Below, piece after piece: positions 2,002 through 64,000 of a stretch of DNA of 64,000 nucleotides. The position numbers were made by a program, and so were the translations under genes. The DNA lies in assembly GCF_000219625.1 (NCBI RefSeq), contig NC_018210.1, forward strand, positions 1,116,001-1,180,000. Direction: 5' to 3'. This DNA comes from Zymoseptoria tritici IPO323. Taxonomy: Eukaryota > Ascomycota > Dothideomycetes > Mycosphaerellales > Mycosphaerellaceae. A model generated the notes under the pieces. That model was not told where the DNA came from, ran no database searches, and saw only the letters and a list, made by a program, of their open reading frames with translations. Each line of letters starts with the position of its first letter. Within the stretch, counting starts at the first letter, position 1.

Positions 2002-3507
2002 TCAAAGACAATCACCAAAGTCCTTCTGATTCATCTCCAGCCATTTTCCCGTGTCCGACGTGCTAGGATTATAGAATTCTGGAAGGGTGAATGGGCGATA
2101 CGGTATCTGGCGCCGAATAGCTTTGTCCGCTCGCCGAATCGCAGTGGCCTGCTCGAGGGGTCCGAAAACACTGGTACCGTCCTCATCTTCCTCGCCATCG
2201 AACGCCATGAGCTCGGATTCTCCAAGCCACACATCTTCAAGACTGAGCGCATCCAGCGAGAACTTTTGGCTCGCAAGACTAGACAAGAGTGCGTCTCCTT
2301 TGCCTTCTCCAACATTAACGTAGCGCAACTCGACGCCTTGAAGTGAGGCACTATGATGCTCAAGGAAGTGAATCAGATCCGTCTCGTTCACCCAAAGGCC
2401 CGATAGATTTACATATCGCAAGTGCTTGCCCGGCCGCATGTTCGCGAGGAAATACATGTATTGACGCATGAACTCATTTCTGACATGTTTCAGTTGTTCG
2501 TCCAGGTAGGTTTGTCGGTAGAAAGAAATGCCCAAGATCTCCAAGCCGGGACATGCCTCCAGCATCGTCGCGAGCGCCTGCGATGAACGGTTGACTGTAT
2601 TCCTGATGCGTTCCGGCAACCGCTCCATTGCGGAAGTGAACACTGGCGAATCCTCAAGTCCCGTCTCAACAGGCATGATGACTCGTTCCGCTGTCTCGAC
2701 CAGAATTTGATCAGATATGCAGATGATGAGCTTCTTCAGTCCGGGGAGGTTGAAACAGCCCGGATACGTGCGGCAAGTATGAGCGAGCGCATCACATGGT
2801 AGACCGAAGCCGCGCGAATGCGTCCCGAATACATCCAGAGAAGTGACGGCGATTTTGCTCATTGCCAGAGCGTTCATGGCGAGGAAGAACGTGTGCTGTG
2901 CTGCTTTGTGCACCCAGATCCAACAGCCAACATCACTAGGTGCTTCTGTCAAGAGCGCATCTTGGTACACAGTCACTGAGACTGACAGACTGTGCAAGCC
3001 ACGAGGCTTGTACATCTTGAAGGTGCGAAGTGCTTCCGTCAGGAAGGAGAGAGCCATGCCAGTGTTGTGAAATTCGATGTATTCCGCTTTTCGCTGGGTC
3101 AAAAATCTGAGATCCTCCCGCGCTTTGGTCCTGGCAACTACATCGTCAGATCCGGCTATCAAAGGTTCTGCGTTGCTGTCATCATGTGTAGACGCTTCGT
3201 GTGGCCATTTGTCAGGCATGGCGATGCGAGCGGGATGGACGAGGTCGTAAGCAACGCCTAATAATGTCAAATGTTCTAAAAGACGCCCGAGCCGACTGTT
3301 CGCGATGATCCAGCCGAGTTTCTCCAGCCCCTCTCGTGTAGTTTCGACGTTCTTGGTCTTGAAGCAAGCACGAAATCGGTCCTGGGTCGCATTGTGGGCA
3401 AGGGCACGATTGACAAGGCGTAAATGTCGGATGTCGTCAAGAGCCAGATGTTCGATGATCAAAGCACAGATCTCGGGAGGCAGCTCCTCGAGAGAGTTTG
3501 TAGTCAT
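2002..3507 (-). CDS. F-box protein (paralogue 2)
   Basis: A single-exon 501-residue protein. Residues 8-40 form an F-box-like motif (LEELPPEICALIIEHL, DIRHLRLVNRALA). The remainder is a leucine-rich-like helical region with a recurring MLEACPGLEILGI element and LRYVNLSGLWVNETDL, shared with the paralogues at 1-1423 and 3990-5486. The inferred role is a substrate receptor for an SCF ubiquitin ligase, cytoplasmic or nuclear, with unknown target. No membrane segment or signal peptide is seen. The gene lies head-to-tail between its two paralogues with intergenic gaps of about 480-580 bp, which points to local duplication. Identity between copies is concentrated in the F-box and the NLEKF/GLEKLGWI segment, so the copies are diverged rather than recent. 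The acidic GEEDED stretch near the C-terminus is specific to this copy. Confidence 0.85.
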   Translation of the reverse strand: MTTNSLEELPPEICALIIEHLALDDIRHLRLVNRALAHNATQDRFRACFKTKNVETTREGLEKLGWIIANSRLGRLLEHLTLLGVAYDLVHPARIAMPDKWPHEASTHDDSNAEPLIAGSDDVVARTKAREDLRFLTQRKAEYIEFHNTGMALSFLTEALRTFKMYKPRGLHSLSVSVTVYQDALLTEAPSDVGCWIWVHKAAQHTFFLAMNALAMSKIAVTSLDVFGTHSRGFGLPCDALAHTCRTYPGCFNLPGLKKLIICISDQILVETAERVIMPVETGLEDSPVFTSAMERLPERIRNTVNRSSQALATMLEACPGLEILGISFYRQTYLDEQLKHVRNEFMRQYMYFLANMRPGKHLRYVNLSGLWVNETDLIHFLEHHSASLQGVELRYVNVGEGKGDALLSSLASQKFSLDALSLEDVWLGESELMAFDGEEDEDGTSVFGPLEQATAIRRADKAIRRQIPYRPFTLPEFYNPSTSDTGKWLEMNQKDFGDCL

Positions 3508-3989
3508 TTTGCTGCAACGACCGATTTAGAGACAGACAAGCAATGTTGTTCGGAATATGGAAGGTCTTCAGGTCTTTGGAGATTTAAGCTGACGGGAGAG
3601 CAGGGATTGAGCTGACTAAGGCAAGATCGATTCCAGCCGGTGTGGAAAGCTTCGGACAGAGAATCTGTTTGATTCTCATTTCCATACGCTCGAGTGAAGA
3701 CTGACCGTGATACGACTTTCTTGTGAGCCTCCTCTGTTTCTGTCTCCATCCATGAACCCGGAATCCACGTGTCTCATCCCATCGACATCACGCTCCTTGT
3801 TCGACAGAGTATATCGAGTTCGGGATACAGAAGCGCAAGAGCCATACGCGCTCGAGCTATACGCTCTGATCTTGGCTCGCCTCAGCATCCTCACTGCAAA
3901 CAGATACTCCACCTTGCAACTTCGTAGCATGGATGCGGCGACACTCCGAAGCCTCGCAGAAACAATCTATCCTGGCAACAACGATGCCT

Positions 3990-5486
3990 TCAACGTCTCC
4001 ACACACCGAACTCCCCCAAACTCCGTCCCTCCCAAGGTGATCCGCCGCGTATGGATGGCCCATAGCCATCGGCGACGTCGTACATAATCACCTTTCTTGC
4101 CGCATCTTCTCCTGTCCGCAGGATTGTGTTATCAGTGATATTTTCCCCGGAAATCTGCGTGCATTTTTCATCCTCGCTACGGGTGAAAGTGATCGGCGAG
4201 ATGTTTACCCACAGATCTTTCAGGAGAATCCGATCGAGCGTCAGACCGTTGCTTGCATAATCTCTGCCACCTAGACAGGAAAACAGTCGGTCCAAACCTC
4301 CTTCGACGAAGACGATGTGTTCCAATTCAAGATCGCGGAGAGTGGCGCCGTGGTTTCGGATCAGTCCCACAAGGTCTTGTTCAGTCAACCGCAAACCAGC
4401 AAGGCGGAGACGGCGAAGTTGCTTCAGCGGGCGCATGAGCGAGAGGAAGCGCGCAAAGAATACCATCGCGGCGTCTCGAACATGTTGCAAGGAGTAGTGC
4501 ATCCACTCTTCTTCGTCGAAACGAAACCCCGATATCTCCAAGACCTCCAAGTTGGGACATGCTGTCAGCATTGTGGCAAGAGATTGAAGGTGCAGCTCAT
4601 CTCCGAGCAAGTCGCTCGAGGCCATCAAGTCCGTGTCTGGGACTCTCGATTGGTGCATGATGCTGAAGGAGCCACCAGTCTCCATATCCTGTTCCGACTG
4701 GACGGGGAGCGGGTCTGAAAGGCAGATAGAGAGCTGTCTGAGCGCCGTCCATTGGTACATCTCTGGACTTGGCCAACCAACTTGAGTGAGTGTGTCCCTT
4801 GGCAGACCGCATCTCATGGACGCCGGCTTCGCGTGGAAAATGTCGAGTGAACGGACGGAAATTCTGCTGTACCTGAGGCATTTCATGGCGAGCAGAAAGG
4901 TGCACTTCGCTGCTTCGTGTATCCAGATCCAGCACTGAGCCTCATTAGGCGTAAGGCTAGCGCTCCCATCGTAGCGATAGATGCTGATCTTGGTAGACAG
5001 ACTGTGCAGACCGGTCGGGTTCTGTTTTGCGAGATTACGCAGTGCCGTGGAGAGCAGTCCCGCATCCTTCCCAGAGTGGTGGAATTTATCCTGCTCCGTC
5101 CGCCGCTGGTTGAGTGAGTCGAGCTCCTTCGTGAGACTTGACTGCATTTGGTCCATCTGGTCATTCGAATAACTCAGTGCTTGGTATTTGTTGCCTTCAC
5201 TGAGCATGAGAAGGTGTCCTGGGTCATACACAACGCCCACAAGCGTCAGATTTTGCAGGAGACATCCCAGTGGTGAGTGCTCGGTGATCCAGGCGAACTT
5301 CTCCAGATTGCGACGAGTGAGTTCGACGCGTTTGCTCACAAACAGAGAGCGGAAATTGTCGTCGGTCACGATGTGTTCGAGCGCGCGGTTGATGAGGCGA
5401 AGATTTTTGATGTCCGGAAGCTCGAGCTGATCCGTCACTCGATGAAAGAGCTCTGGAGGAAGCTGATCAAGTCGCTTTGGCGGCAT
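3990..5486 (-). CDS. F-box protein (paralogue 3)
   Basis: A single-exon 498-residue protein. The F-box-like motif is at residues 6-38 (LDQLPPELFHRVTDQL, DIKNLRLINRALE). It shares the NLEKFAWITEHSPLG block, the TFLLAMKCLRYSRI block and the MLTACPNLEVLEI leucine-rich block with the two neighbouring copies. It is expected to bind Skp1 through the F-box and recruit an unknown protein for ubiquitination. The start is the first ATG of the frame and aligns with both paralogues. It is the most upstream member of the minus-strand trio. The last 60 residues are not conserved between copies and look disordered. Confidence 0.85.
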   Translation of the reverse strand: MPPKRLDQLPPELFHRVTDQLELPDIKNLRLINRALEHIVTDDNFRSLFVSKRVELTRRNLEKFAWITEHSPLGCLLQNLTLVGVVYDPGHLLMLSEGNKYQALSYSNDQMDQMQSSLTKELDSLNQRRTEQDKFHHSGKDAGLLSTALRNLAKQNPTGLHSLSTKISIYRYDGSASLTPNEAQCWIWIHEAAKCTFLLAMKCLRYSRISVRSLDIFHAKPASMRCGLPRDTLTQVGWPSPEMYQWTALRQLSICLSDPLPVQSEQDMETGGSFSIMHQSRVPDTDLMASSDLLGDELHLQSLATMLTACPNLEVLEISGFRFDEEEWMHYSLQHVRDAAMVFFARFLSLMRPLKQLRRLRLAGLRLTEQDLVGLIRNHGATLRDLELEHIVFVEGGLDRLFSCLGGRDYASNGLTLDRILLKDLWVNISPITFTRSEDEKCTQISGENITDNTILRTGEDAARKVIMYDVADGYGPSIRGGSPWEGRSLGEFGVWRR

Positions 5487-6994: not shown

Positions 6995-7005
6995 GCGAGA
7001 TTCAC
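6995..7005. repeat. Target-site duplication, left copy (MULE)
   Basis: GCGAGATTCAC directly precedes the left terminal inverted repeat. The identical 11 bp follows the right one at 11615-11625. Mutator-like elements typically generate 8-11 bp duplications, so this marks the insertion event. Confidence 0.9.
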
Positions 7006-7058
7006 GGCGAGGCTATGGGCAGCCATGAATCTCATCTGCGGGCAGCCATACACGTCAC
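7006..7058 (+). repeat. Left terminal inverted repeat of the MULE (53 bp)
   Basis: It begins GGCGAGGCTATGGGC and ends CACGTCAC, and it is identical over 53 of 53 positions to the reverse complement of 11562-11614. The ten-base word GGGCAGCCAT occurs twice within it, 21 bp apart, and could be a paired transposase contact site (inference). Homology between the two ends stops abruptly after the 53rd base. Confidence 0.92.
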
Positions 7059-7201
7059 TCTATGTTATATACAGGAATGCACAGTATTCGTTACTAACGA
7101 TAATGGTATTGAGTTTGTTTATGTAATTCCACACACGAACGCCCCTAGCTCTGCCCGCGAGATTGGCTACAGAGGACGTTGTAATATCACTTTTTGAAGC
7201 C

Positions 7202-8100
7202 TTAGCCTCTCGTCTGTATCGAAAGTATGCAAGTTCGTAGTGTTCGGTCTCTTACACCGTCGCAAGGTAGTAGTAAAAGCAAGAAATCACACCTAAAAAG
7301 CACCCTAAACGCCTCGTCTGTGTCGAAGAAGGAGGAATCCCCCTACGAGCCCGTAGGCTAGTCGTCTTGGTCGAGGTCCTGGCGGTTGTTAGTCACCTCG
7401 TTCTGAACGGCTACTTAGGAGAGAAGTAGGTGCTACGTTATAGCCGCGCCGCCCTAGATCTGCTCGAGTAAAGTACGAAGTATCGAGCGCACTTCGCGGG
7501 TTATCTTCTGTATATCTGTTAGAGGTCTTTGTTTTAAACGAAGAGGTATATATACCGAGATGCGGCCGTTGGTCTGGCGGCTCGTCCAGGTACCCTGCAG
7601 AATCGCCTAGTACTCGACCATCGCATCCTTCTATAGACAGCTATACGGCATAAAGTCCTCGCCGTTACGGCCGATAGGAATGTCGGTGCCCCTCGGCATA
7701 GCCGTATTCGCGGTCCAGCAGCTATAGCACTTGGCCACGCCGCGAGCTCCACGCTAGCTGTGCGCCCTGTTATGTGTTAGTAGCCGCTCGTTTTAAACGA
7801 GCTCGTTATAAACGTACCGTAGGAAGCCTTCGACGGAGGAGTTAATCGGCTGAGGACAGCTGTCCGGACCCTAGCGAATAGCGTAGTAGCGCACGCGGTT
7901 ACGCTAGTTGTTCGAAAGGTTAGGCCACTGCCTATTAATCTCGGCGATCTAGCGGTTCTCTTGTGTCGAACGGTTGGCGTTAGCAGGTAGGGCGTTAAAG
8001 CCGGCCCAGGTAGTACAGTTGGAAGCTATCGTTGTGAACGAGGGCGAGGGAGAGGGAGAGGACTTGGTAATCTTGGTGTTCGTTCTTAACGAGAGACTTA
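7202..8100 (-). pseudogene. Second MULE-encoded reading frame, function unknown
   Basis: Read on the minus strand, one register from about 8100 to a TAA at 7202 gives about 300 codons of protein-like sequence broken by 12 stops, 11 of them TAG. These are the expected products of CAG-to-TAG and TGG-to-TAG change. Visible segments include KITKSSPSPSPSFTTI, INSSVEGFLRYVYNELV and PRGTDIPIGRNGEDFMPYS. No ATG is left at the expected start, and I recognise no family. It lies downstream of, and in the same orientation as, the transposase. MULEs in plants and fungi often carry a second gene; in the plant VANDAL group such genes encode factors that counter silencing. A similar job here is inference only. 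Confidence 0.5.
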
Positions 8101-8309
8101 GATAGGTATGAGTGTTAAAGAAAGGAAGAGGGTTTAAAGTCGAAGAAACGGCGGTATAAGAAGACAGGCCGGGTCCAATTCGTCATTAACGAGCGTGACA
8201 GGCAGCATTCACGTCCTGTCTGCTGACCGGAAAACCGAGCATGTGGCCTCGTTGTAAGCGAAAAGTCGGTCCTCGTTGTGAGCGAAAAGTCGGTCAGATG
8301 GCCGCCCAA

Positions 8310-8554
8310 ATAAGCTCGTTGAGGACGAGAATGTGATAAAATCAGCTCGTTGAGGGCGAGAACGTGATAAAAACAGCGTCCATCTGATAGAAAACCCGCC
8401 TAAATAAGCTCGTTGAGGACGAGAACGTGATAAAATAGGTGCCTATCTAATAGACAGAACGCCTATATGACACGTTTTGCCCCTTAACTGAGCACGTTGT
8501 GAACGAGAACTGAGCACGTTGTGAACGAGAACTGAGCACGTTGTGAACGAGAAC
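8310..8554 (+). repeat. Short tandem and near-tandem repeats in the MULE
   Basis: A module reading GCTCGTTGAGGACGAGAA followed by (T or C)GTGATAAAA occurs three times, at about 8315, 8346 and 8409. A 22-bp unit starting TGAGCACGTTGTGAACGAG is repeated in tandem three times at 8489-8510, 8511-8532 and 8533-8554 with no differences. Every unit contains the TCG-N7-CGA motif or its ACG-N7-CGA variant, so the motif has been amplified here in clusters between the two reading frames. Confidence 0.8.
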
Positions 8555-8599
8555 GTGATATATATAGCCTATTAAGTAAGCTATCGAGGCGCCTACTGA

Positions 8600-11472
8600 G
8601 TCTGAGAAGGTGTTTGAAACGAAGTGCTTGCAGCATATGCAGACTTCCGGGCTGGCTAGGATGGCCGAAGAGATGTCCTCGTTGTTACCGTATAATCCTG
8701 CTCGGTAATAACGAGAGGAGGAAGTTAGTACTACTAGTTCGGCTGCAACGAGTACTGCGGCTGTAGCTGGCAATACAACTGCGGAGGCTGATAAGGCTGG
8801 TATTGGCTGTTCGGTAGAAACGAATAGTAACCGCTTAGATGCTGCTGCTACTACGGCTGGAATTGCGGCTGGAATTAAGAGCTCGGAGGTAACGAATACT
8901 ACTGCTGGGGCTGAAATTGAGCATTCGGTTGTAACGAGGACGGCGGCTAGTGCTGCTGGCTCGGTGTATACGAAGGCTGGCTGTTCGGCATAAACGAGGG
9001 CTGGCTGTTCGGCATAAACAAGGGCTGGCTGTTCGGCATGAACGAAGGCTGGCTGTTCGGCATAAACGAAGGCTGGCTGTTCGGCATGAACGAGGGCTGG
9101 CTGTTCGGCATAAACGAGGGCTGGCTGTTCGGCATGAACGAAGGCTGATTATTAGACTCCTTAGTCCGGTTTATGTTTGACGGGCCAGCAACAACCTTCG
9201 GCTGTACAGCCTTCGGCTGTAACGAGTCGAAGGTTGTTTGCATAAGATGCTACGGTATAGGCGGATTGCTCGGTGTAGTTATCGGTTAAAACGAGAAGCT
9301 ATCTCCCTTATTCTCTTTGTTAGAATCGGTCGCCTTTGCCTTGCCCTTCTTCTTCGTCGTCTTCTTCTTCCTTTTTGAAGGGTTCGTTTAAGACGCAGAG
9401 TGATTCTTATTAACTGTTTCTGCATACAATGCATCCCGACGGTTACTCGAGATTAGCTGTTCTCGACGACGACGAGCAAGCTGGTGCAGCTGGATGCGTT
9501 GTGCTCCTCGTTGCCGACGAGAAGGCAACGACTTAATCTCCTCGATCTCCTCTGCCTCGTTGTCTTTGGTTTGAACGAGGTCCCTTCGAGTGCACTTCTA
9601 GCGCCTGCCGATAACGTCGAGGGAAACGGGCCTCTTCTAGACAATACACTCGCGGATGTAATGCGAGCAAGGCAGGTCGGTTGTTTCTATAAATACCCCC
9701 GTGTAGTCTGTAACCGGCTTTGTGTTATCCGTTGCTAATAAGTACTGTCCTATAAGGAGCGTAATCGCGTACCGGTATACCTTTCGATGCAGCTTGTAGA
9801 AGATTACCGGAGTTTGCAGCAAGGTCTGGCTCGTTTTATCCGAAAGGTCTTGCTAGTATTTCTGTACTTGCTTTTTACACTAGGGTATCGTGCGTTCGAC
9901 AAGGCCGAAGGTGTCGGACTGCGATGTTCCAAGCCACTGCTTTAATATCGCATGCACGCCTTCGACTCGAGATGTTGCTCGGATAAGCCAGGTTCGTATT
10001 CGGTTTAGACGAAAGGCCGCCCAGAGCGAGGTATAAGGAAACCACTCTTTCTGTAGGTATTCGTAGCTACCGAGCTATATATCTTTCAGCGCAGCGCAGT
10101 GAACTTTGAACTCGTCTTCGGTGTTAGCGAAAGCTGCCTTTCGGAAGGTTTCGAAGAACTCTTCTGCCTCTTCGCTGTTAACGAAGCCCCTATTCTCTTC
10201 GTCTGCTTCCTATAGAAATTCGCTCCGTGTATACGCAAGGACATCTTTCATAAGATGCTACTTGCATAGCCGTCGAGGAGTGTTTGGAAACACGGTAGAC
10301 ATTGCGTTTAAGCATGCCCTGTCTCGATCGACTACAAAGAGTTCAGGTAACCGGACTTCGTTCTTAACGAGGATCTCTTTCATAGCCTTAAAAGCCCACT
10401 GAAAGGCGGCTTCGTCTTTACCGGCTATAATACACAAGCCGAAGGGCAACGTCTTGTTACCTCCGGAAACGCCGCAGAAGTTGAACACTAGTCGTCCTAA
10501 ACGATGGACCTTATATGTATTATCCGCAAGAATAACCTCCGGAAAGTGTCGCCAGACTTCGAGGTTTTCGGGGTGAACGAAGAAGAGTTGTTCAAGGCAG
10601 CCGTTCGCTGTAACCGAGTACTTATACGTATATCCTTTCGACTGTAACAACTCGAGTGTTGCGTCTGCGATTGTCTTCCCGGAGAGAACGAGAGCCCGGT
10701 ATTTCTGGCGGATGTTGCTCAGATCCTTTCGTTTCGGATACAAGTCTGGAAACTTATCTCGAAGAAGGGCTAGCGATTCGCTTACATTAAGCCCAGCTCG
10801 TTTGTAACGAATTACTTCGTCGATTACTTCTTCGGTTTGGTCCTAACGACGGTAATATGCTGGCATACCGGCGGTGCCAGCCTCTGTGCTAAACGCCATA
10901 TAGTTATGGATACGTGGCCGGCCTTCTCGTTAGTAACGAATTAACTATGCTCCGTCTTTGTTCTTCGGATCTTCCGCCTTATACTAAAGCCGCATAGGAC
11001 ATTTGTGCTTCCGTGTACTAGTCTTCCGACGACGATTGCTCGCGTCGATCTTGCGATAGTTGCGTGTTGTTCTAGCGTGTCTACAGCGGACGTCCTTCTA
11101 GCACCCGTTGTTCTTTGATCCGCGTATAACGAGGTCGTATCCGTGCTCTCGAGTCCAGACCTTTATAAAGGCCTTTAGTTCCGGTAGAGACGAGAAGACT
11201 CGCTCGGGCGGTGGGAGTAGTTCAAACTCCTTAATCTCTTCGTCGCTGCCGAAGAAGTCCTCTTCTTCGTTGTTAACGAGCTCTTTATTAGCGGCGGCGG
11301 CGGCGTCGGCGTTGGCATCGGAGTGTATATCGTCGATAAACGGATAGCCGTTAGCATCGAGCTCTTGGGTTGAAGTCTGTTCGGCTATAACGAAGGCTAA
11401 GGATCTGCGTGTAGAAGTAGTATATACGCGTGTGAAGGTAGTGTGTATAGGACGACAACAACAACGCGACAA
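8600..11472 (-). pseudogene. MULE transposase (RIP-broken)
   Basis: One minus-strand register carries the whole transposase with about 15 in-frame stops, nearly all TAG, attributable to CpA/TpG mutation. Around 11098-11280 is the N-terminal FAR1/WRKY-like DNA-binding region (ELKAFIKVWTREHGYDL, then DVRCRHARTTRNYRK after one stop). The longest open piece, 10258-10743, is the MULE transposase DDE-type core: EVILADNTYKVHRL, GLCIIAGKDEAAFQWAF and FVVDRDRACLNAM followed by a truncated LCK. The C-terminal part is a disordered, proline- and glutamine-rich tail with seven NSQPSFMP repeats. This resembles the fungal Hop-type MULE family. The stops make it inactive. The original start codon is not identifiable. 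Confidence 0.85.
8985..9152 (-). repeat. 24-bp tandem repeat, 7 units, in the transposase tail
   Basis: Units of exactly 24 bp start at 8985, 9009, 9033, 9057, 9081, 9105 and 9129. They encode the octapeptide NSQPSFMP in the minus-strand transposase frame. Units alternate between GGCATAAACGA and GGCATGAACGA cores, a TG/TA difference of the RIP type. All but the second unit retain an exact TCG-N7-CGA motif. Confidence 0.9.
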
Positions 11473-11561
11473 GAGAGGTAGACATTAACGCGTATTATGC
11501 AGTTACACGCTTGTGTATTAGCTCTTCGTTTATAACGAGTATATACAGAGTATATACAGAG

Positions 11562-11614
11562 GTGACGTGTATGGCTGCCCGCAGATGAGATTCATGGCTG
11601 CCCATAGCCTCGCC
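11562..11614 (-). repeat. Right terminal inverted repeat of the MULE (53 bp)
   Basis: Its reverse complement is identical to 7006-7058 over all 53 bases. It is followed at 11615-11625 by GCGAGATTCAC, the second copy of the target duplication. Confidence 0.92.
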
Positions 11615-11625
11615 GCGAGATTCAC

Positions 11626-53738: not shown

Positions 53739-54826
53739 GGTGGAATTGGGAGGTGGGATGGGTTGCTTGGGAAAGGCGTTTGGTGGGATTGATACCCGGG
53801 TGATATGGATGAAGCTAAGATTTGAGATATGCGGAGATGCGCGACCGTGATCGTGATGCGCGATATCGATGCCTGGTACTTTGCCCAGTGAGACACCGCT
53901 TTGCGCATGGGTGCCATGCCGCAGGGGCGAGGTGGCCTTGGCCTTGTTTATGCCGCATCCGGACATTCCTCACATTCACATTCACCTGGCCATCCCGCTC
54001 CCGCACCTTATCTTGACTTCAATGTCAACTTCGACCTCACCTCCTGAACTGGCGCCGGAAGACTGTTCCCCTATCCTCAATGCATGTGTATGTAGCACCT
54101 TCAATGAGTCCGTTACTCTCCTCTGCGTATACGCCTATGCTTCTTCGGAGCTTGGAACTACATTTCATCGGCCGTTTCTTGTGTATCTTATGGCCTCTTT
54201 GCCTCTGCCAATGTGAAGCACACGTACGGAAGTAGCAGTATCCACTTCAGACTTCGTTACGACTTCGACCCCCCCTTAAGATATCCAAGCTTGATACTGA
54301 GAGCCTCTCTGTCCTTGGTATGAGCGAACTGTGACGGCTTCCGTATGTTATGTGCACCTGCATGCTGATGCTCTGTAGGCCGATCAAGAAGATCATTGAA
54401 GAAGACTTGAACCTCCTTGAATCAGACCCATTGAGAAGGGCACGCATAGGCCAAGGCAGCAACGCCGAACGCCATCTTATTAGACGTGCGAAAATGGTAA
54501 TGCACGATCGTCCGAAGGAGTCTTTCAATATCGGCCGACAGGAGTTGTTCGATATCAATGTCTGAAGTCTCACTTCCAACCAGTATCTACTACGATCGAT
54601 CATGCAAGACAAGGCATGAGAAGAATTTGATCTTTTTATCATGTGCAAGGACAGCTGATAGGCACAGAAATTCACTCGCCTTGGCACATATGCATGGCGA
54701 AGTCCAAATTTCGAAGTGCAAAAATAAGACCTCAACGTCGACCGAACACGCTGAAATTTCCTGAGGTAAGAGCAGACGAAGAGGAGAGCAAGGCAGTAAA
54801 GAGGGAGAGCGCCAATGTGGCAAAAA
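53739..54826. other. Long spacer before the repeat block, no supported gene
   Basis: 1.1 kb of ordinary-composition DNA with the ESA1 3' flank. A 206-codon minus frame (54247-54867) overlaps the tRNA-like element and plus frames at 54350-54565 and 54558-54764, and shows no family features. I do not call it a gene. Confidence 0.35.
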
Positions 54827-55018
54827 AGGTCGTACCAGGGCTCGAACCTGGGTTCCCTGAAGATCAAGATGTACTCAAAATCAGCTGTTCCAGATGTTAG
54901 CGGAGTAACGTCGAACGGAGGATGACTTTAGCTTACATGTGCTCACTGTGGCAGAGTTAGAGACTGAACGATGGTCAATGACACCAAGGGTGTGACTTGC
55001 CCACTACACTATACAACC
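54827..55018 (-). tRNA. tRNA-Gln(TTG)-like gene, apparently interrupted
   Basis: On the minus strand the 3' half has a perfect T arm (54851-54835, CCAGG-TTCGAGC-CCTGG), acceptor strand TACGACC (54834-54828), discriminator T and an immediate T5 run (54826-54822), as in a Pol III terminator. The anticodon region reads GCTGATTTTGA (54885-54875, TTG) with a short intron-like insert before TCAGG; the stem has four of five pairs. The 5' half is found about 105 bp upstream: acceptor GGTTGTA (55018-55012) pairs with TACGACC in 7 of 7 positions (one G-U), and a consensus A box TAGTGTAGTGG forms the D arm. The 105 bp at 54886-54990 separate the D arm from the anticodon arm. It is either a pseudogene or a tRNA with an unusual interruption. 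Confidence 0.35.
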
Positions 55019-55226
55019 GCATTGACAGCTGATTGGCTTCTGATATAACTTCTGCAAAGCCGGTGCGTTTATAATAGTTCTAGTCAGTTGCGACAGTGCC
55101 GAGCCTATGACGTGTTCGAGTTAACTTTCTTTAATACCAACCAGCAACAGACCATACAGACCATACAGAAGCAATGCTACACGCGTGTGTCTACGCGGAC
55201 GTATGTTATATTCGCGCGCTCCCTCG

Positions 55227-55234
55227 TGTTTAAT
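55227..55234. repeat. Target-site duplication, left copy (hAT)
   Basis: TGTTTAAT stands immediately before the left terminal inverted repeat and again at 58152-58159 immediately after the right one. An 8-bp duplication is diagnostic of hAT-superfamily insertion. Confidence 0.9.
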
Positions 55235-58151
55235 TAGTGCTCTTTATAGTATGGTTACCGGTAAAATTAGCCGCTTACTACTACTAACTAGATGTTTACT
55301 ATTCCTTACTAATAGCACTAGTAGTAACTATTACTAGATTAGGAAGGAGGTCGTAAAATAAAGCTTATATTGCTAGTGTATCTACTAGTGTTATAATAGT
55401 CGATATCTCTTTAAACTCTAGCGTTTTAACCGCTCTTAATAAGCTAATATTACCCTTCTTCGTATATTCGTATTATACTACCGGCTCTTACTCCTTATTA
55501 AATACTATTATTCTATGTGTTAGTAGTCTATACTAGCTTCTTAAATAGTTACAGGCCTTAATAATGTCCTCTTATAGGTAAGAACGACGGTATCCGATTA
55601 AGTCCCTACTAGCTAAGAAGGCTCGTTTATCCTTATTACTTATAATTAGAATAGCTAGTATATTAAATGCTATAAGAGCGAGCTCTAGCTCCGTATAGCG
55701 GCGTTCGAACTAGTATTAAAGGAGGTTAAGGGGCTCGGTTAGCGTATCTTATATATAGTCGGTAGCGATATAGTTATTAAGGGGATCGACGCGTACGAAG
55801 GGGCTATTAAGTTTACGTCGTTTAAAGTCTCGGAGGTGTTCGTAAAGGTCGTCGCTCTCGAGAGCGCGTATAGTAGAAGGGGCGGTAGAAGGAGCGGTAT
55901 AAGGGGTAGAAGGTCGGTAGTTACTATTCTAAAGGTTAATAATAAGCTCTCGAACCTACTTAATATAGCCCTATTATTTAGCGGTACTATAAAGCTAAAG
56001 GTCCTCGAACTAGCCTATTTTTAGTATTAGATTAAGGACGACGGTAGCATATACTATTAGCATCTTATTAGCGAGTTTCTAATACTTCTTAGCCTTTAGC
56101 TATACGTAGTTATAATAAGCTAAGAGGTAGCTAAACTACTTATTAACTAGGGCTTCCTCCTTAAATTTAGCTAAGAACTTAGAGGTATAGTCTAGCGTAA
56201 ACTAAAGCGTTAGATACTACTTAAAGAAGTGCTTCCTATTGCCCTAAGTAGTTATTATTATAAGTTCGAAGACGTAGAGGGCGTTATAAAGTCGCTTAAT
56301 CTACTACTAATTGTTCGCGGTAAGAGTGTTGTCTCGGACGGTGCGGTCGGATCGGAAGAGCCTATAGAACTTTATAAGGCGTTCCCTTATACTCTACGCT
56401 CGGCCGAGTATATAGTAGAAGGAGTTCTAGCGTATAGAGTTGTCTTAAATAAGCTATAAGGGTATTGTTATTAGTTAAAGGAAGAAGGTATATATTTTAA
56501 AGTTAGTATTCTTAGCGGGGGGTAAGGGGTTGCGGCTCTATAGTAGCGGCCGAAATTCTAACGGTAGCTCCCTAGCGTATAGGGGAGCTAATTAGAGTAG
56601 CCGCTAACGAATTTTAGCTATTCCCGTACTACTTAAGCTCTACTAGCGTTAAATCTCGAGATTCTTAAAACTTAGATTTACTTACCTTTAAATTGTTAAA
56701 TATTACCGCCGCGCTAGTATAATAAACCTCTATAAACGCCTCTATCCTCTACGTCGACGCCCTAATCTACCGGATAATATTATATAGCTTTCCGATAGCT
56801 CCGCGGTTACGCTAGAACGTATCTACCGCCTCGAGAGCACCCTTCTCGACCTACTACTCTAATTCCTTTATCGCTTTACTACTCCCCTTACCGAGTAATA
56901 TAGCCTTAGTAATAAGGTTGTTAATATAGCTAAGGTAGCGGAGGCGTCTACCCTTACGCTATTTAGCTATACGGTAGGGATATAGTACCTTTAGGACTAC
57001 GTCGATAGTAGGGTCGTTATTAGAGCTATTATCGGCTATAAAGTATCCGGTACGTTTCTTAATACTATATTCCTTAATAACCTCTAATAGTAGTATAGAG
57101 ATATTAATACTAGTATACTTACCGCGGAGCCTTCTAAACGCTAGCCTCTCGGTCCTCCTTTTACCGCTCTTATCGACGAAGTAAGTAGATATACTAAATA
57201 TCGTATACGAATTCGGACTCGTCTAGCCGTCGAACGAGATATATATATTACTTAGTGCCTCCTTTAACTCCGCCCTTAACGCCTCCTTCCGAGCCTAATA
57301 CTTAGCTATTACCTACCTCTAAATCGTCGAAGAAGCGCGAGGAAGATAGCCTACGAGGCCCTTATTTATAAAGGATATAAGAGCTCGGAAGTACTCGTTC
57401 TCGAGTATATAGAAGGTAATATAACAATATATAATCTAGCGTATAAGAAGGTGCTTAAAGCGATCTATACTATTAGTAGTTACGACCGAGATTATAGAGC
57501 TAACTATGCCCTTCTAAGCCTCCTTCCTTACTACGTTACCGTCCTTATCGATGCTATAGACCTTTAGTATATAAGTTAAAGGGCCTATGTTGCTATTAAC
57601 TACCGGCAGCACCTACTTCCTTCTCTCGTCCTTATAGAGGTAGTAGTAATAGTAGCATTTACCGGTGTCTAGATACACTAGCTACTTACTATACTTCTAT
57701 ATCTTACTCCTTCTCTTACGGAGGCTCTTAAGGCTTACGAAGTCTAGCTAACGTATATATCTTATACTATTAATGCTAATATAGTTAGGTAGTAAGGGCT
57801 TGTCGTATCTAGCATTAAAGGGATTAAGGATAAGCTTATCGGTTAATCTACCGGAGGTTAATAGCTATTAGAAGGCTATAGCAATAGTGCATTAAGAGGC
57901 TAATAAATAAGGGCAATAAGGGCAATAGTAAGAGTAAGGAATGTACGCGATATATAATAACAACGCGATAAAAGGAGGTGCGGTAGTATATCTATTAATC
58001 CTATTAGTTCGGAGCTATTTCCGCTAGTTACCGGTATATACGTAAACCCTTACTACTACTAACTAACAACCCTAACCCTAAAGACTATACTAACTAGTAA
58101 CCGTATAAACTACTACTAGGAACTAAGCTAACTATACTATAAAGAGCACTA
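55235..58151 (-). mobile_element. hAT-superfamily DNA transposon, RIP-mutated
   Basis: A 2917-bp element. The ends begin TAGTGCTCTTTATAGTAT on both sides (inverted; 18 identical bases). One G/A difference of RIP type follows, then four more matching bases. The flanking duplication TGTTTAAT is perfect. The minus strand encodes a single hAT transposase. Subterminal DNA on both sides contains TTACTACTACTAACTA-like words. Despite heavy mutation of the interior, the duplication and TIR cores, which lack CA and have few TG, are preserved. Confidence 0.9.
55430..57850 (-). pseudogene. hAT transposase (RIP-broken)
   Basis: One minus-strand register of about 800 codons is broken by many TAG stops. 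Landmarks in order are the catalytic-domain start ISFDG-stop-TSPNSYTIFS, then RRLRYLSYINNLITKAILLG (the family's RRLRC-GHI-N region after TG/CA loss). FLAKFKEEALVN lies near 56.1 kb. The C-terminal dimerisation domain is at about 55.5-55.7 kb (ELALIAFNILAI, then DKRAFLASRDLIGYRRSYL). This order and spacing identify a fungal hAT transposase. It is inactive because of the stops and many missense changes. The start is not recoverable by eye. Confidence 0.85.
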
Positions 58152-58159
58152 TGTTTAAT
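58152..58159. repeat. Target-site duplication, right copy (hAT)
   Basis: TGTTTAAT, identical to 55227-55234, follows the right end of the hAT terminal repeat. Confidence 0.9.
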
Positions 58160-58199
58160 CTCTACATTATTCTTCTACTTTATTATCTCTATTGTCTCT

Positions 58200-59890
58200 A
58201 TTACCTCTATTTCCTTTAACATGCCTATTATCTCTATCTTTACTATTATCGTCTTTAGACTCCCCGTTGTCCTCTAGTTCCCTTAACGCTAGTCGTAACT
58301 ACGTCGTAAGACGAGTTAGCGCTTTTACGCGGTAGTCGAATCTTAAACTAGTACTGGTCCTACGCTATTCCTCGCCTACGCCGCTACCTCTAAGCACATC
58401 TACATAGCCGGTATATTTACTTAATAGCTTTACAAACTCGTCCTACCGACTAGGCTTGTCGCTCTCGGTCCTTATAACGTGCCTTAGAGTACCGATAGTT
58501 AATCTACGGGTCTTTCCGGCTATCTTCGCATTAGACTTATAGACTACGAGAATGTCTAACCGGAGCTAGCGTATAGTGTAGTATAGCCTCCTTATCCTCT
58601 TAATAATTTCTAAATTAGTTGTACTAGCCTCTTCTTCTTACTTATCTACCTAGTCTTCCGGTCTATCCTCTCCGTTATCTCTACCGTTATCGGAGTCTCG
58701 TCCCGGCCTACTAGAGTCTCGCGCGGCTATCTCTACGGATCGATTATCGACATCCGTCGTAATACTACTCGCTCCTTTACTAACCGAGCCCTCGATAGAT
58801 AAGCTAGTACTGTCTCGAAGATAATCTAGCCGTAGCGCTAAGCGATTCGTACGTAATTGTTTCGCATTCCTATCTAGACGAGCTACTATTAATAGTGTCC
58901 TTACGCGTAGCACTTCTACGTACTAGACTTCGAGGTTAGAGTTATCGTTAGAGTTAGGAACCGTTATATTACGGTTACGAGTAGGAGCTAAGGATATTAG
59001 GGGAAGGATAGGCGGTAATAGGATAGGCGGTACCGGGACGATAGGAGGCGCGGGGACTATCTCTTCTTTATCTCTATCGTCTTCCGAATTAGGGATCGTT
59101 ATATCGCGGTTACGAGTAGTCGCCGAGGATATAAGCGGCGTCGGGATAGGCGGTACCGAGATAGGCGGTACCGAGATAGGCGGTACCGAGATAGGCGGTA
59201 CCGAGATAGGCGGTACCGAGATAGGCGGTACCGAGATAGGCGGTGCCGAGATAGGCGGTGCTAAGATAGGCGGTACTAAGATAGGCGGAGGGGCGGGCAC
59301 TACGTCTTCTTTATCTCCGTCGTCTTCGGAGTTAGAAGGAGTACTATCGTCTCGTACGGTCGTTACCGATAATATAGGTATAAAGTTAGATAAGGGCTTC
59401 CCTTTAAGGCTAGAGACTTTCGGCACCTCTACTAGAGGGTCCGCTATTAGCGAAAGCTCCTCGACTTTATCGTCGGAGTCGAGTAGTACGATAGGTACTT
59501 AGCGCTATTTTATTACTATAGAGCGGATGTTTAGTACGATTTCCTTATCCTCCTCGCTATCGGAAGTAACTACTATCCGTCTACCGCTCCGGGCGCGTCT
59601 AGAGCGTATAGCTAGTATTAGGTCGTTATTCTTACTTTACGCGGTTCTAGACGGTCTCCCTATAGCCGGGCTAGGCTTTCTCGAAGGCCCTCCGGGGAAA
59701 TAGATAGAGTCGACTCGGCGGAAAAGGCTTATAGCGCGAGCGGTCGATTTAAGCGAGCGCTAACGGGACTCTTCCTTAAAGCTGTTTAGTATAGTAGTCG
59801 ACTCTCGTATAATTCTATCTAATCCGCTCTACCTAGCGGTAGATGTACGTCCTTCCGCTCTAAAACCTAGCTAAGACTCTCTACTCTACG
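58200..59890 (-). pseudogene. RIP-broken low-complexity reading frame, family unknown
   Basis: A minus-strand register of about 550 codons is interrupted only by occasional TAG/TAA. It encodes a disordered, charged protein: FPGGPSRKPSPAIGRPSRTA, IVVTSDSEEDKEIV, acidic SNSEDDGDKEDVV repeats, a PPISV tandem repeat, and RNRDITIPNSEDDRDKEE. The lower part has RLDRNAKQLRTNRLALRLDY and SSRPGRDSDNGRDNGEDRPE. I recognise no domain. It lies between the hAT target duplication and the Gypsy element and has the same composition, so it belongs to a repeat. It could be an accessory protein of an unidentified transposon or a captured host gene. Confidence 0.45.
59146..59288 (-). repeat. 15-bp tandem repeat, about 9 units
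   Basis: The unit ATAGGCGGTACCGAG is repeated in register. The last three units carry GTGCC, GTGCT or GTACT in place of GTACC. It encodes a PPISV pentapeptide on the minus strand within the 58200-59890 frame. The length of 15 bp keeps the frame open. Confidence 0.9.
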
Positions 59891-59909
59891 CTTCGCCGTA
59901 ACCGCCTGT

Positions 59910-60135
59910 GTCACATCTGCCTCCGCCGAATACCGACAATCGGCATCTAATCCCCTACCTTAGCGGCATATGCACCCCTACTAAGGCCTTTTAAGCTCGT
60001 TTAAGCCAGATTGCGCCTGTATTATAAGGATATATAGAATCTCCTCCTTCCGAGAGAGTATCGAATCGAGTCTGTTCTAAAGTAATTTATACTGCTACTC
60101 TATTCTTAACTGCACCTTTTATATACGATTCGATC
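59910..60135 (+). repeat. Candidate 5' LTR/leader of the Gypsy element
   Basis: Between the upstream frame and the gag frame lies a 225-bp noncoding segment that still holds CA and TG steps (TGTCACATCTGCCTCC, GGCATATGCACC) and a TATATAG promoter-like word near 60050. Position and length suit an LTR, but its second copy would lie beyond the right edge, so the boundaries cannot be confirmed. Confidence 0.3.
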
Positions 60136-60169
60136 CTCCCTATAGTATAACGAATTACTTCCGAGATAG

Positions 60170-63100
60170 CTTCGTCTCGTCCCGGCCTATTAGGGAGCAA
60201 GAGCACCCGTCGCTATACGAACGAACCCGCTAACGACCCGAAGACTATAGAAACCTCTACTTAGACTGCCGTTAGCGACGACGAAGACGCCGAAGGCGGG
60301 CCTAAAACCCCGGAAGAACCTATCGGACACTAGGATGCCGCTAACGAGGGCGAAGAAGAACTGGAGAACACTCTACCCGGGGGAGAAGAAGACAATATTA
60401 ATAAACAAATCCGTAAGGAAGAGGCCGCTACCGCTAGATAGGAGCGCCTCCTCTAGCTTAGCCTTCTCTAGGCACGCAACAAGGCTATAAGGGACCGTAT
60501 CGCCTAGGTATAGAACGGATCTATCCCTACTGTCCTACCCGATGCCCTAGTTCGGCTATCTATCCCTAAGAATACGCTCCTAAAGGCCCGGAATCCCTAT
60601 ATCTTCGAGGGAAAGAACCGCGCTAACTAGGAATAGTAGTAGGAAGATATTAACCGAGCAATTAACCGGGCTAGTATAGCTACCGACGAAGAAAAGATAG
60701 AATTCGCTAAAGAATAGATAGCGAGACCCTAAAAGCAGCACTAGAAGCGCTACCTTCTTAATAAGGCACCCGTTCGGCTAATATAGAGCGACATATAGCT
60801 CGTAATACTAGATTCTATAGGTATAAAAGACGAACATACCTAAAGAGCTATAGACAATATTAAAGAGGCTAAATAGGGCGACAAGACCCTAACCGGGCTA
60901 ATAAACTACCTAAAAGAATAGTAGGATAAGATCGGTTGCACCGACATTCCTAGGATAATCTATAAATTTAAGGGAGCTCTTACCCCGGCGGTTAGAAACA
61001 GGCTCGAATAAGGCTAAGTTACCCTTATAACCCTCGTAGATGCGGAGGAACGAGCTAATATATCGTACCGACAGATACAGGAATTTAACAAAAAGCGCTT
61101 AGCGAAGACTTCCGTCGACGAAACTAACAGAAGGCGCCTAAACAAAAACAATAAGCCCCCGAGTAGGCTAAGAAGGGCTAAAACCCCCCCGAAGGCGGCT
61201 AATAAGGAGAAGTCGGCTACCGCCTACTAAATATATAGCAAAGAGGGCTACCGGCGCTAGGAATGCCCCGATAAGGACTAGTCGGGAAAAGGGAGAGCCT
61301 GTAGTAGATCTCCTCTAACCGCTACGGGTTAAGTCTAGTACTTAGAGGCCTAAAGAAAGGCTGCCGAGCTAGGAGGAATTACCCGAACTATAGGGGAAGG
61401 GCTAATACGCCTTAAAGTAGAGATATAGGGTCCTAATAGGACTAAGATACTCCGAGCACTACTCGATTATAGAGCGCAAAGCAACTTTATAGATAATATA
61501 GCAGCTAAAGAGCTAGGCCTAAGCCCCGAGTTAGGGCAAACGGCCTAATACGTAGCACTAAACAGCTAGAGGATAGCTATTTAGGGAGAATGCCGCGTCC
61601 TGTTTAAAGTAACGGACACTTAAGGACACACGAGAGGATATATAAAAACCTTCGTAGTCGGAAGAATCTATAGGTTCTAACTAGTCCTCGGCATACCCTA
61701 GCTAGAACGATAGAACCTAAGGGTAAACTTTATCTGTAAAAGCATTACTTAGAAGGGGACGAAAGGTAGATAATAGAGGCCGGTTAGGCTCGTCTTACCC
61801 GAAGAGTTCTAGAAGGACGCCTCCGGCATCCCTTCGGGGCGCGTTTAGGCCCTTGCCGCTTAATACACAGATAACGCGCTAAAAGAACCGGAATTTCTAA
61901 GCGAATTCTCGGATTTCGCAGACGTTTTCGTAGAAGGAAACGAGTCCCTTCTCCCTAAGATAGGGCCGAATAAGCTTAGTATCGACCTCGAAGAAGGCAA
62001 GGAGGCCCTATACGGCCTATTATACAACCTTTCTATAATAGAACTAGAGACTCTGCGCAACTACCTTGCTAATAGCCTAGAGAAGGGGTAGATCTGCCCC
62101 TCGACCTCCCTAGCGGGGGTAGGCATCCTCTTTGTAAAGAAAAAGGACAGTAGCCTATATCTATACGTCGACTATAGGGCCCTTAATGCCGTTACTATTA
62201 AGAATAGACACGCCCTGCCCCTCGTCTAGGAATCGCTAGACTAGTTAGCGCCGGCAAAGTTCTTTATAAAGCTAGATATACGAGACGCGTACTATCGCAT
62301 CCGAATTAAGGAGAGCGACTAGTAGAAAACTGCCTTTCGGACAAGGTATAGCTACTTTAAGTACACTATAGTCCTATTTAGGCTAACTAACGCCCTAGTA
62401 GTGTTCTAAGGATATATAAACTACGCCCTCCGGGGCCTACTAGACTACTATGTTATAGTATACCTCGACGATATCTTAATATACTTACAAGACGCCGAAA
62501 GCTACAAGAAACACGTTAGGATAGTCCTCGAGAGACTTAGAAGATACCGACTCTTTGCTAAATTGTTAAAGTATAAGTTCTTTAAGCAGCAAGTTAGCTA
62601 CCTTAGGTTTATAGTAACCCTAAAAGGGGTCGAAATAGAGGTAGAAAGGATCTAAGCTATCGCTAACTAGCCCCTTCCGGCCTTAGTTAGGGATATTCGT
62701 ATCTTTATCGGATTTGCGAACTACTACCGCTAGTTTATTAAGTAATTCTCCCGCATAGCTAGCCTACTAAACTACTTAATAGAGAGAGGCCTAAATAGTG
62801 CTAAAGGCGGACACCGACAGAGAAAGGAGGAATTAGTTCCCCTCGAACTCCTTCCTAACGTAGTATAAGCATTCTAGCAGTTAAAGACTAGGTTTATTAA
62901 AGCGCCTATCTTACGGCATTTCGACCTAAAACTGCCTATCCGCGTCGCAATAGATACCTCCGGGTTCGCCGTCGGGGCAGTACTATCCTAACCGCATAAA
63001 ACGGAGGGCAAAATGCACTAGTACCTAGTAGCCTTCTTCTCTAGCAAGATAAACGCGGCCGAAAGGAACTATAACATACACGATTAAGAGCTTCTCGCTA

Positions 63101-64000
63101 TAGTCGAGGCCTTTAAGCACTAGAGATACTACGTTAAGGGCGCTTCGCACTAAATTAAGGTCTTAATAGACTATTACAACCTAAAATAGTTTATAACAAC
63201 TAAGCAACTAAGCCGAAGATAGGCAAGATAGGCAGAGTAGCTGTTAAACGTCGACTTCCACATAACGTACAACCCGGGGTTGCTTAATACCGCCGCGGAC
63301 GGAGTAAGTAAACGCCTAGACCTAGAAGATAGGGACTACTTAGGACAGTAGATTAACGAAAGCGATAGTGCCCTTGTATTAGATACCCTTCGGTACTAAC
63401 TAGGTCTGTCCGAGGGAATAACGGCCGAATCTAGCCCTGTTCGGTCTATAATAGCAGTTATAACCTACTATCTGCAGCTCGCTAGGACCTACTACAGCAA
63501 AACGTATATAATAGCGAGTACTCTAATAAAAGAATTATTAGACTCCCCGCTAATTAATATAATACGCGAAAGCCTAAAACATAACCCTATAGCATCGACA
63601 GTCGAACTAGCTATAAATAACCCGGATCCGCCGGAATAGACCTAAAGGTAGGCTATATAAGGCGAATTCCTCTTCTACGAACAGAAACTGTACGTACCTG
63701 CGGGCCTAGTACGCCTAGCAGCTCTCTATTAGTGCTATAACGATCCCCTAGCTAGCTACTTTAGTTTTAAACGGACCCTAGAGCTGTTACAACAGTCGTT
63801 CTACTAGCTAGACATAAGAAAATATGTTAAGGACTACGTAAACAGCTGCTAGATATGCGATAGGGCGAAGCTATAGCGATATAGCCTATATAGAGAACTC
63901 TATACGGAAACTCTACTAAACGGGCCCTAGGAGGACCTAATATTAGATTTTATTACCGATCTGCCCCTAAGTACGTTTATAGGGCATATATACGACTTAA
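60170..64000 (+). pseudogene. Ty3/Gypsy-type gag-pol, RIP-broken, cut by the window edge
   Basis: One plus-strand register runs to the window edge with dozens of TAG stops. Order: gag (60170-61200, acidic start EEEELENTLPGGEED), a decayed CCHC zinc knuckle near 61230-61275, and an aspartic protease around 61465, whose active-site triad is altered by two TG-to-TA steps. Reverse transcriptase follows (VDYRALNAV near 62170; the YLDD catalytic box at 62461-62472), then RNase H (about 62880-63300). Integrase begins at about 63700 with the zinc-binding region and the first catalytic Asp region (LILDFITDLPLS). The RT-RNaseH-integrase order is that of Ty3/Gypsy, not Copia. The element is inactive. 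Its 3' end and LTR are outside the window. Confidence 0.88.

Follow-up and report, generated by a model that had tools for sequence, protein, structure and literature searches.

A dense array of palindromic TCG-N7-CGA sites within a Mutator-like element of Zymoseptoria tritici

Results

In a window of 64,000 nucleotides from Zymoseptoria tritici IPO323 (the whole stretch analysed, C9:1116001-1180000 in a genome of 39,686,251 bases and 21 contigs), we found a dense array of sites of the form TCG-N7-CGA. The array fills a full-length but mutated Mutator-like element (MULE) at positions 7005-11615. We propose that the sites, dense and dispersed as they are, serve the symmetric binding of a dimeric, sequence-specific protein, which the element itself most likely encodes and which acts against silencing; taken in all its parts, this proposal appears to us evenly poised between right and wrong.

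A sequence-only reading that preceded this analysis had counted 43 exact sites between 7210 and 11538, and had expected a handful by chance. Its count was essentially right: the recount gave 44 sites in that interval and 45 in the whole element, the additional one being at 7088. Dinucleotide-preserving shuffles of the element, which the same reading had proposed, yielded a mean of 1.99 sites and a maximum of 7, so that similar counts were never reached in 1000 shuffles. The gap was controlled by counting TCG-Nk-CGA, which occurs 45 times at k = 7; over the rest of the range k = 0-30 (30 gaps), the count stays between 0 and 6. Three other full copies of the element are present in the genome (C13, C1 and C8; the window copy is called W). 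They contain 47, 43 and 47 sites, respectively, at k = 7, and at most 7 at other gaps. An unbiased scan of all trinucleotide pairs with gaps of 0-20 ranked TCG-N7-CGA ahead of every other dyad in W, C13 and C1; in C8 it came second, behind the overlapping TCG-N6-ACG. Its log10 P in the four copies was -38.6 to -46.1, whereas the strongest dyads reached -4.8 to -9.0 in 26 other MULE loci and -4.4 to -12.1 in eight other pieces of the window. DNA outside the element contained 119 sites in 216,689 bases (2.5 per 4.6 kb), with at most 9 in any of 721 overlapping sliding segments of element length. The shuffles, the gap control and the background DNA rule out chance and base composition as the source of the motif.

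Alignment of the 45 sites resulted in the consensus YTCGKYNNNRMCGAR, a 15-bp palindrome with three nearly free central bases, the half-sites of which are spaced ten bases apart, corresponding to one helical turn. The symmetry of this profile is imposed, because each site was counted on both strands, but the pairs of half-sites show it directly: TCGTT with AACGA is among the two commonest pairs, with nine sites. The second of these pairs, TCGGC with AACGA, is as frequent (nine sites) and comes mostly from the tandem array in the transposase tail described below. At least eight of the ten bases of TCGTT-N3-AACGA were matched at 52 sites in the element, compared with 1-8 for eight control arrangements.

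The first site begins at base 84 of the element, the last ends 77 bp short of its right end, and the array stops where the element stops. The sites are spread uniformly (Kolmogorov-Smirnov test, P = 0.59 for the 45 sites and 0.95 for 34 groups into which they were collapsed by their 40-bp flanks, different groups having no similar flanks). Helical phasing between adjacent sites showed no pattern upon inspection by eye. The terminal inverted repeats (TIRs) do not contain any TCG and therefore have no site.

Genome-wide, TCGTT-N3-AACGA occurs 85 times, 37 of these being inside the four copies. The 48 occurrences outside the copies compare with 50 for a reversed-pattern control, so that the palindromic form is at control level there and a genome-wide motif is ruled out. 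A pattern of two clustered sites gave 130 matches in the genome versus 84 in the control; among the first 100 of the 130 matches, the dense clusters were the element copies alone, with one further pair at C7:2272005-2272071. The 13-mer TCGTTATTAACGA recurs singly outside the copies, at six places among the matches listed (C2:371592, C3:843994, C4:1576441, C6:2016320, C7:1834828 and C9:103125), and is perhaps part of another repeat.

The element is identified as a MULE by a PF10551 transposase domain (70-74 bits; cut-off 27.6), by its TIRs, which are an identical 54-bp pair in W, and by a 9-bp target-site duplication at all four copies. The other full copies are located at C13:1121164-1125757, C1:6056510-6061016 and C8:1964303-1969742. 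As each copy has its own 9-bp duplication (GGATTTGAA on C1, AGGGAGAAG on C8 and ACATTTTGG on C13), every copy is a separate insertion. We compared them with 26 of the 46 other PF10551 hits in the genome (about 3.3 kb each; 25 of the 26 with stop codons in the domain). These 26 loci contain 0-4 TCG-N7-CGA sites each versus 43-47 in the four copies; nothing comparable to the array was seen in them, which argues against a general feature of the MULEs of this genome. Neither the shuffles nor these 26 loci equalled the enrichment. The comparison of related MULEs, which the sequence-only reading had called for and which was made here within one genome, has a second side: the three other full copies do carry the array, but they are not independent of W.

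Compared with W, 161 of 165 differences in C13, 270 of 290 in C1 and 183 of 183 in C8 are transitions, the type of change produced by repeat-induced point mutation (RIP), and all four copies have a RIP-like composition, with TpA/ApT ratios of 1.25-1.77 versus 0.49 for window positions 20001-54000. The union of the four copies comprises 52 sites, 34 of which are exact in all four. Fewer columns are variable in the motif core (15 of 270) than in the rest (310 of 3015), and CpG columns were altered in 11 of 90 cases in the core versus 42 of 235 elsewhere. RIP targets CpA/TpG, and the core TCG/CGA contains neither. Dim2-dependent mutation is described in PMC8016269. As the copies go back to a single recent ancestor and most of their differences are transitions, shared site positions prove no conservation, and conservation between copies was set aside as evidence for selection.

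The signal is imposed on the DNA in the transposase body. The 17 sites between 9301 and 11405 are distributed over codon phases 1/2/3 as 2/9/6, and their density is about that of the left region, where 13 sites fall into phases 5/4/4 relative to a candidate minus-strand frame extended both ways. Shuffling synonymous codons in the 695 codons of the body, with protein and codon usage kept and stop codons shuffled among themselves, gave a mean of 2.5 and a maximum of 9 sites in 2000 shuffles; 16 are observed. In the transposase tail (8605-9300), 13 of 14 sites are in codon phase 1, where they specify S-x-x-P-(N/S)-like repeats, and protein repetition may therefore contribute there. The sequence-only reading had reported motifs in all three codon phases, and each of its examples was confirmed (10605 in phase 1, 11267 in phase 2, 10798 in phase 3). 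Its conclusion that the motif is a DNA-level signal and not a product of protein repetition holds at least outside the tail, while repetition is possible within it. Its description of a spread through coding and noncoding DNA alike needs one correction: 8605-9300 is not noncoding, being instead the low-complexity C-terminal tail of the transposase.

Some of the sites lie in tandem repeats. Seven tandem arrays in W have a score of at least 50, with units of 15, 24, 31/63, 22, 24, 15 and 11 bp. Four of them contain the full core, one a near-copy and two neither; random units of such lengths have the full core in 3-16% and at least five of the six core bases in 16-38%. The 24-bp array of the tail has 7.4, 7.4, 4.4 and 7.4 units in W, C13, C1 and C8, respectively. 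Three of the motif-bearing arrays vary in number between copies, and one 15-bp array is constant. From the several unit lengths and the copy-number differences we conclude that motif-bearing repeats arose more than once, some of them changing fast, in line with what Hosaka et al. (2017) describe for the targets of VANC. The features are listed in Table 1.

Table 1. Features of the element in the window, with strand where one applies.
Feature	Positions	Strand	Remarks
Array of 45 TCG-N7-CGA sites, consensus YTCGKYNNNRMCGAR	7088..11538		
Left target-site duplication CGAGATTCA	6996..7004		identical 9 bases at 11616-11624
Right target-site duplication CGAGATTCA	11616..11624		
Left TIR, 54 bp	7005..7058	+	contains GGGCAGCCAT twice, 23 bp apart
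Right TIR, 54 bp	11562..11615	-	identical to left TIR
MULE transposase frame interrupted by TAG and TAA stops, start not assigned	8605..11386	-	Q/P-rich low-complexity tail 8605-9300
MULE catalytic domain PF10551	10246..10536	-	74.2 bits, E = 1.8e-19, one internal TAG
N-terminal region, FAR1/AFT zinc-finger-like, bounds approximate	10893..11193	-	weak matches
Candidate second protein frame, 331 codons	7190..8182	-	downstream of transposase, same direction
Tandem repeat, 15-bp unit equal to motif	7786..7814		1.9 copies in all four element copies
Tandem repeat of two 24-bp units, each with one motif	8247..8295		in W and C13; not found in C1 and C8
Tandem repeat, 31/63 bp, motif within unit	8308..8465		
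Tandem repeat, 22 bp, motif near-copy (5/6 core bases)	8486..8554		3.1/2.1/2.1/4.1 copies in W/C13/C1/C8
Tandem repeat, 24 bp, six exact sites	8970..9147		PSFMPNSQ-like repeats in transposase tail

The transposase frame (8605-11404) has only two stop positions common to all aligned copies. The candidate second frame contains 13 interior stops in W, all of them TAG or TAA. In each of the four copies it outscores the other five frames in codon usage, although this signal is weak. A structure model of its product had a mean predicted local distance difference test score of 36, which gives no confidence, and was not used; a sequence search of the PDB returned a single chance-level match (E = 0.5). 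Plus-strand frames were rejected as a second gene: the three scanned gave one chance-level Pfam match (E = 0.041), and a homologue search with one of them found none.

Further observations concern the element and its relatives. The GGGCAGCCAT pair in each TIR is a possible transposase site separate from the array. The C8 copy has an internal insertion of about 0.83 kb (~3180-4012 of locus L006) that holds one TCG-N7-CGA; as CCCGCCCAAAT is present on both of its sides, this appears to be an insertion nested in the element and flanked by a target duplication of its own. At C10:50233-50485 (2240-2483 of locus L056), there is a heavily mutated terminal fragment of a related element (77% identity), the motif sites of which are decayed. 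Short stretches matching the TIR on both strands at C5:133130-133176 and C3:2835649-2835693 are perhaps TIR remnants. A related MULE at C9:934153-935868 has a stop-free transposase frame of 685 residues around the MULE domain, and no strong dyad of its own was detected within the surrounding 3.3 kb (933370-936699). Elsewhere in the window, a tandem repeat of GATAGGCGGTACCGA (59145-59288, 9.6 copies) lies in a stretch of low G+C content (54001-64000, 39-46%).

Discussion

The array is very probably read by a DNA-binding protein acting as a dimer. Such a dimer would contact two inverted TCG half-sites separated by roughly one turn of the helix (ten base pairs). The sites would thereby mark the transposon's own DNA along nearly its full length and leave motif-free the TIRs, where the transposase is expected to act. 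That the reader is encoded by the element is rather probable, because the motif is seen, among the families examined, in this one alone; the candidates would be its transposase, through the zinc-finger-like region, and the protein of the second frame. The most likely use of the array would be to counter heterochromatin, so that the element stays accessible or expressed, in a role like that of VANC proteins. Anti-silencing as the outcome is a tentative suggestion drawn from the analogy to VANC21, since the VANC21 motif shares the restriction to one family, the high density and the tandem amplification.

Several results weigh against this proposal. The four copies amount to one historical sample, given their recent common ancestor. 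No footprint was detected: CpA/TpG dinucleotides in motif centres were mutated in 31 of 48 cases versus 226 of 405 elsewhere, that is as often, so that nothing points to shielding by a bound protein. A relative (protein P0001, 57% identical over 389 residues) is compatible with the motif at six of 11 sites, the control being one of two, an outcome that speaks neither for the proposal nor against it. Nearly all tail sites share one codon phase, and the protein repeats may account for them. FAR1/AFT-type domains are grouped as WRKY-GCM1. The AFT match of the N-terminal region of the transposase is weak (E = 0.052) and under the cut-off, as is the FAR1 match of P0002, to which this region aligns (E = 1.5e-4). 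As to the second frame, six stop positions are common to all copies aligned there, and two other copies have two TGA each. It has no Pfam match and hence neither DUF1985 nor DUF287, the frame being damaged and its status as a gene uncertain, and no homologue was found outside the four copies. Of the two proteins that the sequence-only reading ascribed to the element, the MULE transposase is thus well founded in its PF10551 domain and the second one weakly supported.

The alternative that survives best, though we regard it as doubtful, is an array of transposase-binding sites for transposition, in which the sites capture or titrate the transposase, or help to pair the ends, and have been extended through the element. 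The outermost sites are nearly symmetric in their distance from the two ends (84 and 77 bp), and the zinc-finger-like N-terminal region, with its weak matches, would fit a DNA-binding transposase. However, the sites are uniform over 4.6 kb and not concentrated near both ends, where known subterminal arrays of the hAT/CACTA type sit, and the site-free TIRs have an internal direct repeat of their own as a possible separate binding site.

Exploitation of a host chromatin factor, be it a general regulatory, replication or nucleosome-positioning protein, seems to us unlikely. The layout is similar to that of the yeast Abf1 site, TCRY-N5-ACG: TCGTT-N3-AACGA fits this consensus, and TCG-N6-ACG is strongly enriched in the element too. 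A host factor would not explain why the palindromic form is at control level outside the copies or why TCG-N7-CGA is not enriched in the 26 other MULE loci. In addition, the genome has no match to the ABF1 family (PF04684), which is a weak argument as control genomes are silent too.

We consider it very improbable that the sites accumulated neutrally, without any reader, by tandem amplification or by mutational bias, as RIP leaves CpG-rich words. Part of the sites are indeed in tandem repeats, and changes are somewhat rarer in the CpG core than outside it. Nevertheless, flanking sequences differ between the 34 groups, and a constant spacing of 7 is beyond the reach of RIP, other gaps being at background. 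Moreover, the 26 other MULE loci, 25 of which have a MULE domain interrupted by stop codons, do not have the array, and codon shuffles that preserve the protein fail to reproduce it. Least credible of all is that repetition at the protein level (the S-x-x-P-N tail) created the motif: possible for the 14 tail sites with their nearly uniform phase, it fails for the other 31 sites, as those of the body and of the left region occur in all three phases.

Repeated short sites inside DNA transposons are known from other systems. Ac/hAT and En/Spm elements (hAT, CACTA) have subterminal transposase-binding repeats near their ends. Mosquito Muta1 has 12-bp tandem repeats within its TIRs (PMC5225508, accessible in part). 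In contrast to the sites of all three, which are near or in the ends, those described here cover nearly the whole 4.6 kb and spare the TIRs. Among fungal MULEs, those of the Hop subgroup have TIRs of 51 bp, and Mutyl of Yarrowia has TIRs of 22 bp, a target duplication of 9-10 bp and a second open reading frame, mutB, described with a DNA-binding role (PMC6446971, in the portion available). The element resembles both, by description only, as a fungal MULE with short TIRs, and Mutyl also in the size of its duplication and in the candidate second reading frame; unlike here, that portion describes no motif array for them. Fungal DNA transposons encoding TET/JBP dioxygenases (PMC12730594, accessible in part) are similar in that their cargo may act on cytosine methylation. 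They carry an enzyme, however, whereas the frames scanned here gave no dioxygenase match. No report of such an array in a fungal transposon was found among the titles and opening lines of abstracts surveyed in the openly licensed literature, nor is one mentioned in the accessible part of a published repeat survey of Z. tritici.

Whatever its function, it is unusual for a DNA signal to be strong enough to shape the choice of codons throughout a transposase, and this one offers a ready-made probe for its reader. To our knowledge, sequence-specific anti-silencing by a transposon is known from plant VANDALs only; a fungal case, if true, would suggest repeated evolution of such systems. Zymoseptoria, a genus with polymorphic cytosine methylation, would be a direct test ground, because strains with and without functional Dim2 methyltransferase exist (PMC8016269, in the part available).

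The parallel to VANDALs, raised by the sequence-only reading, deserves a close comparison. In the VANDAL21/VANC21 anti-silencing system of Arabidopsis, binding and demethylation have been shown (Hosaka et al., 2017; PMC5735166), whereas the fungal element, in a host with RIP, is known here from its sequence alone. Both belong to the MULE superfamily, and in both a short motif is dense in one family, rare in related families and often arranged in tandem repeats that differ in number between copies; to this extent the parallel holds. It does not extend to the layout or to the protein domains. The VANC21 motif has 9 bp, is non-palindromic, has one orientation and is mainly noncoding (PMC5735166), in contrast to the 15-bp palindrome here, which occurs in coding DNA as well; this difference, too, counts against our proposal. 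VANC proteins carry DUF1985/DUF287, neither of which was detected here. Furthermore, VANDALs are described as non-TIR elements (PMC6446971, in the portion available), unlike this one. It is conceivable, and no more than a cautious guess, that a VANDAL-like self-recognition arose independently in a fungal transposon, whose own dimeric protein would read a CpG-centred palindrome distributed over coding and noncoding DNA, perhaps in a methylation-sensitive manner, and open the chromatin. The array would be relatively spared by RIP, as the half-site cores (TCG/CGA) hold CpG and no CpA/TpG. Two tested features would thus place the element outside the VANDALs, but by analogy it may work like one of them.

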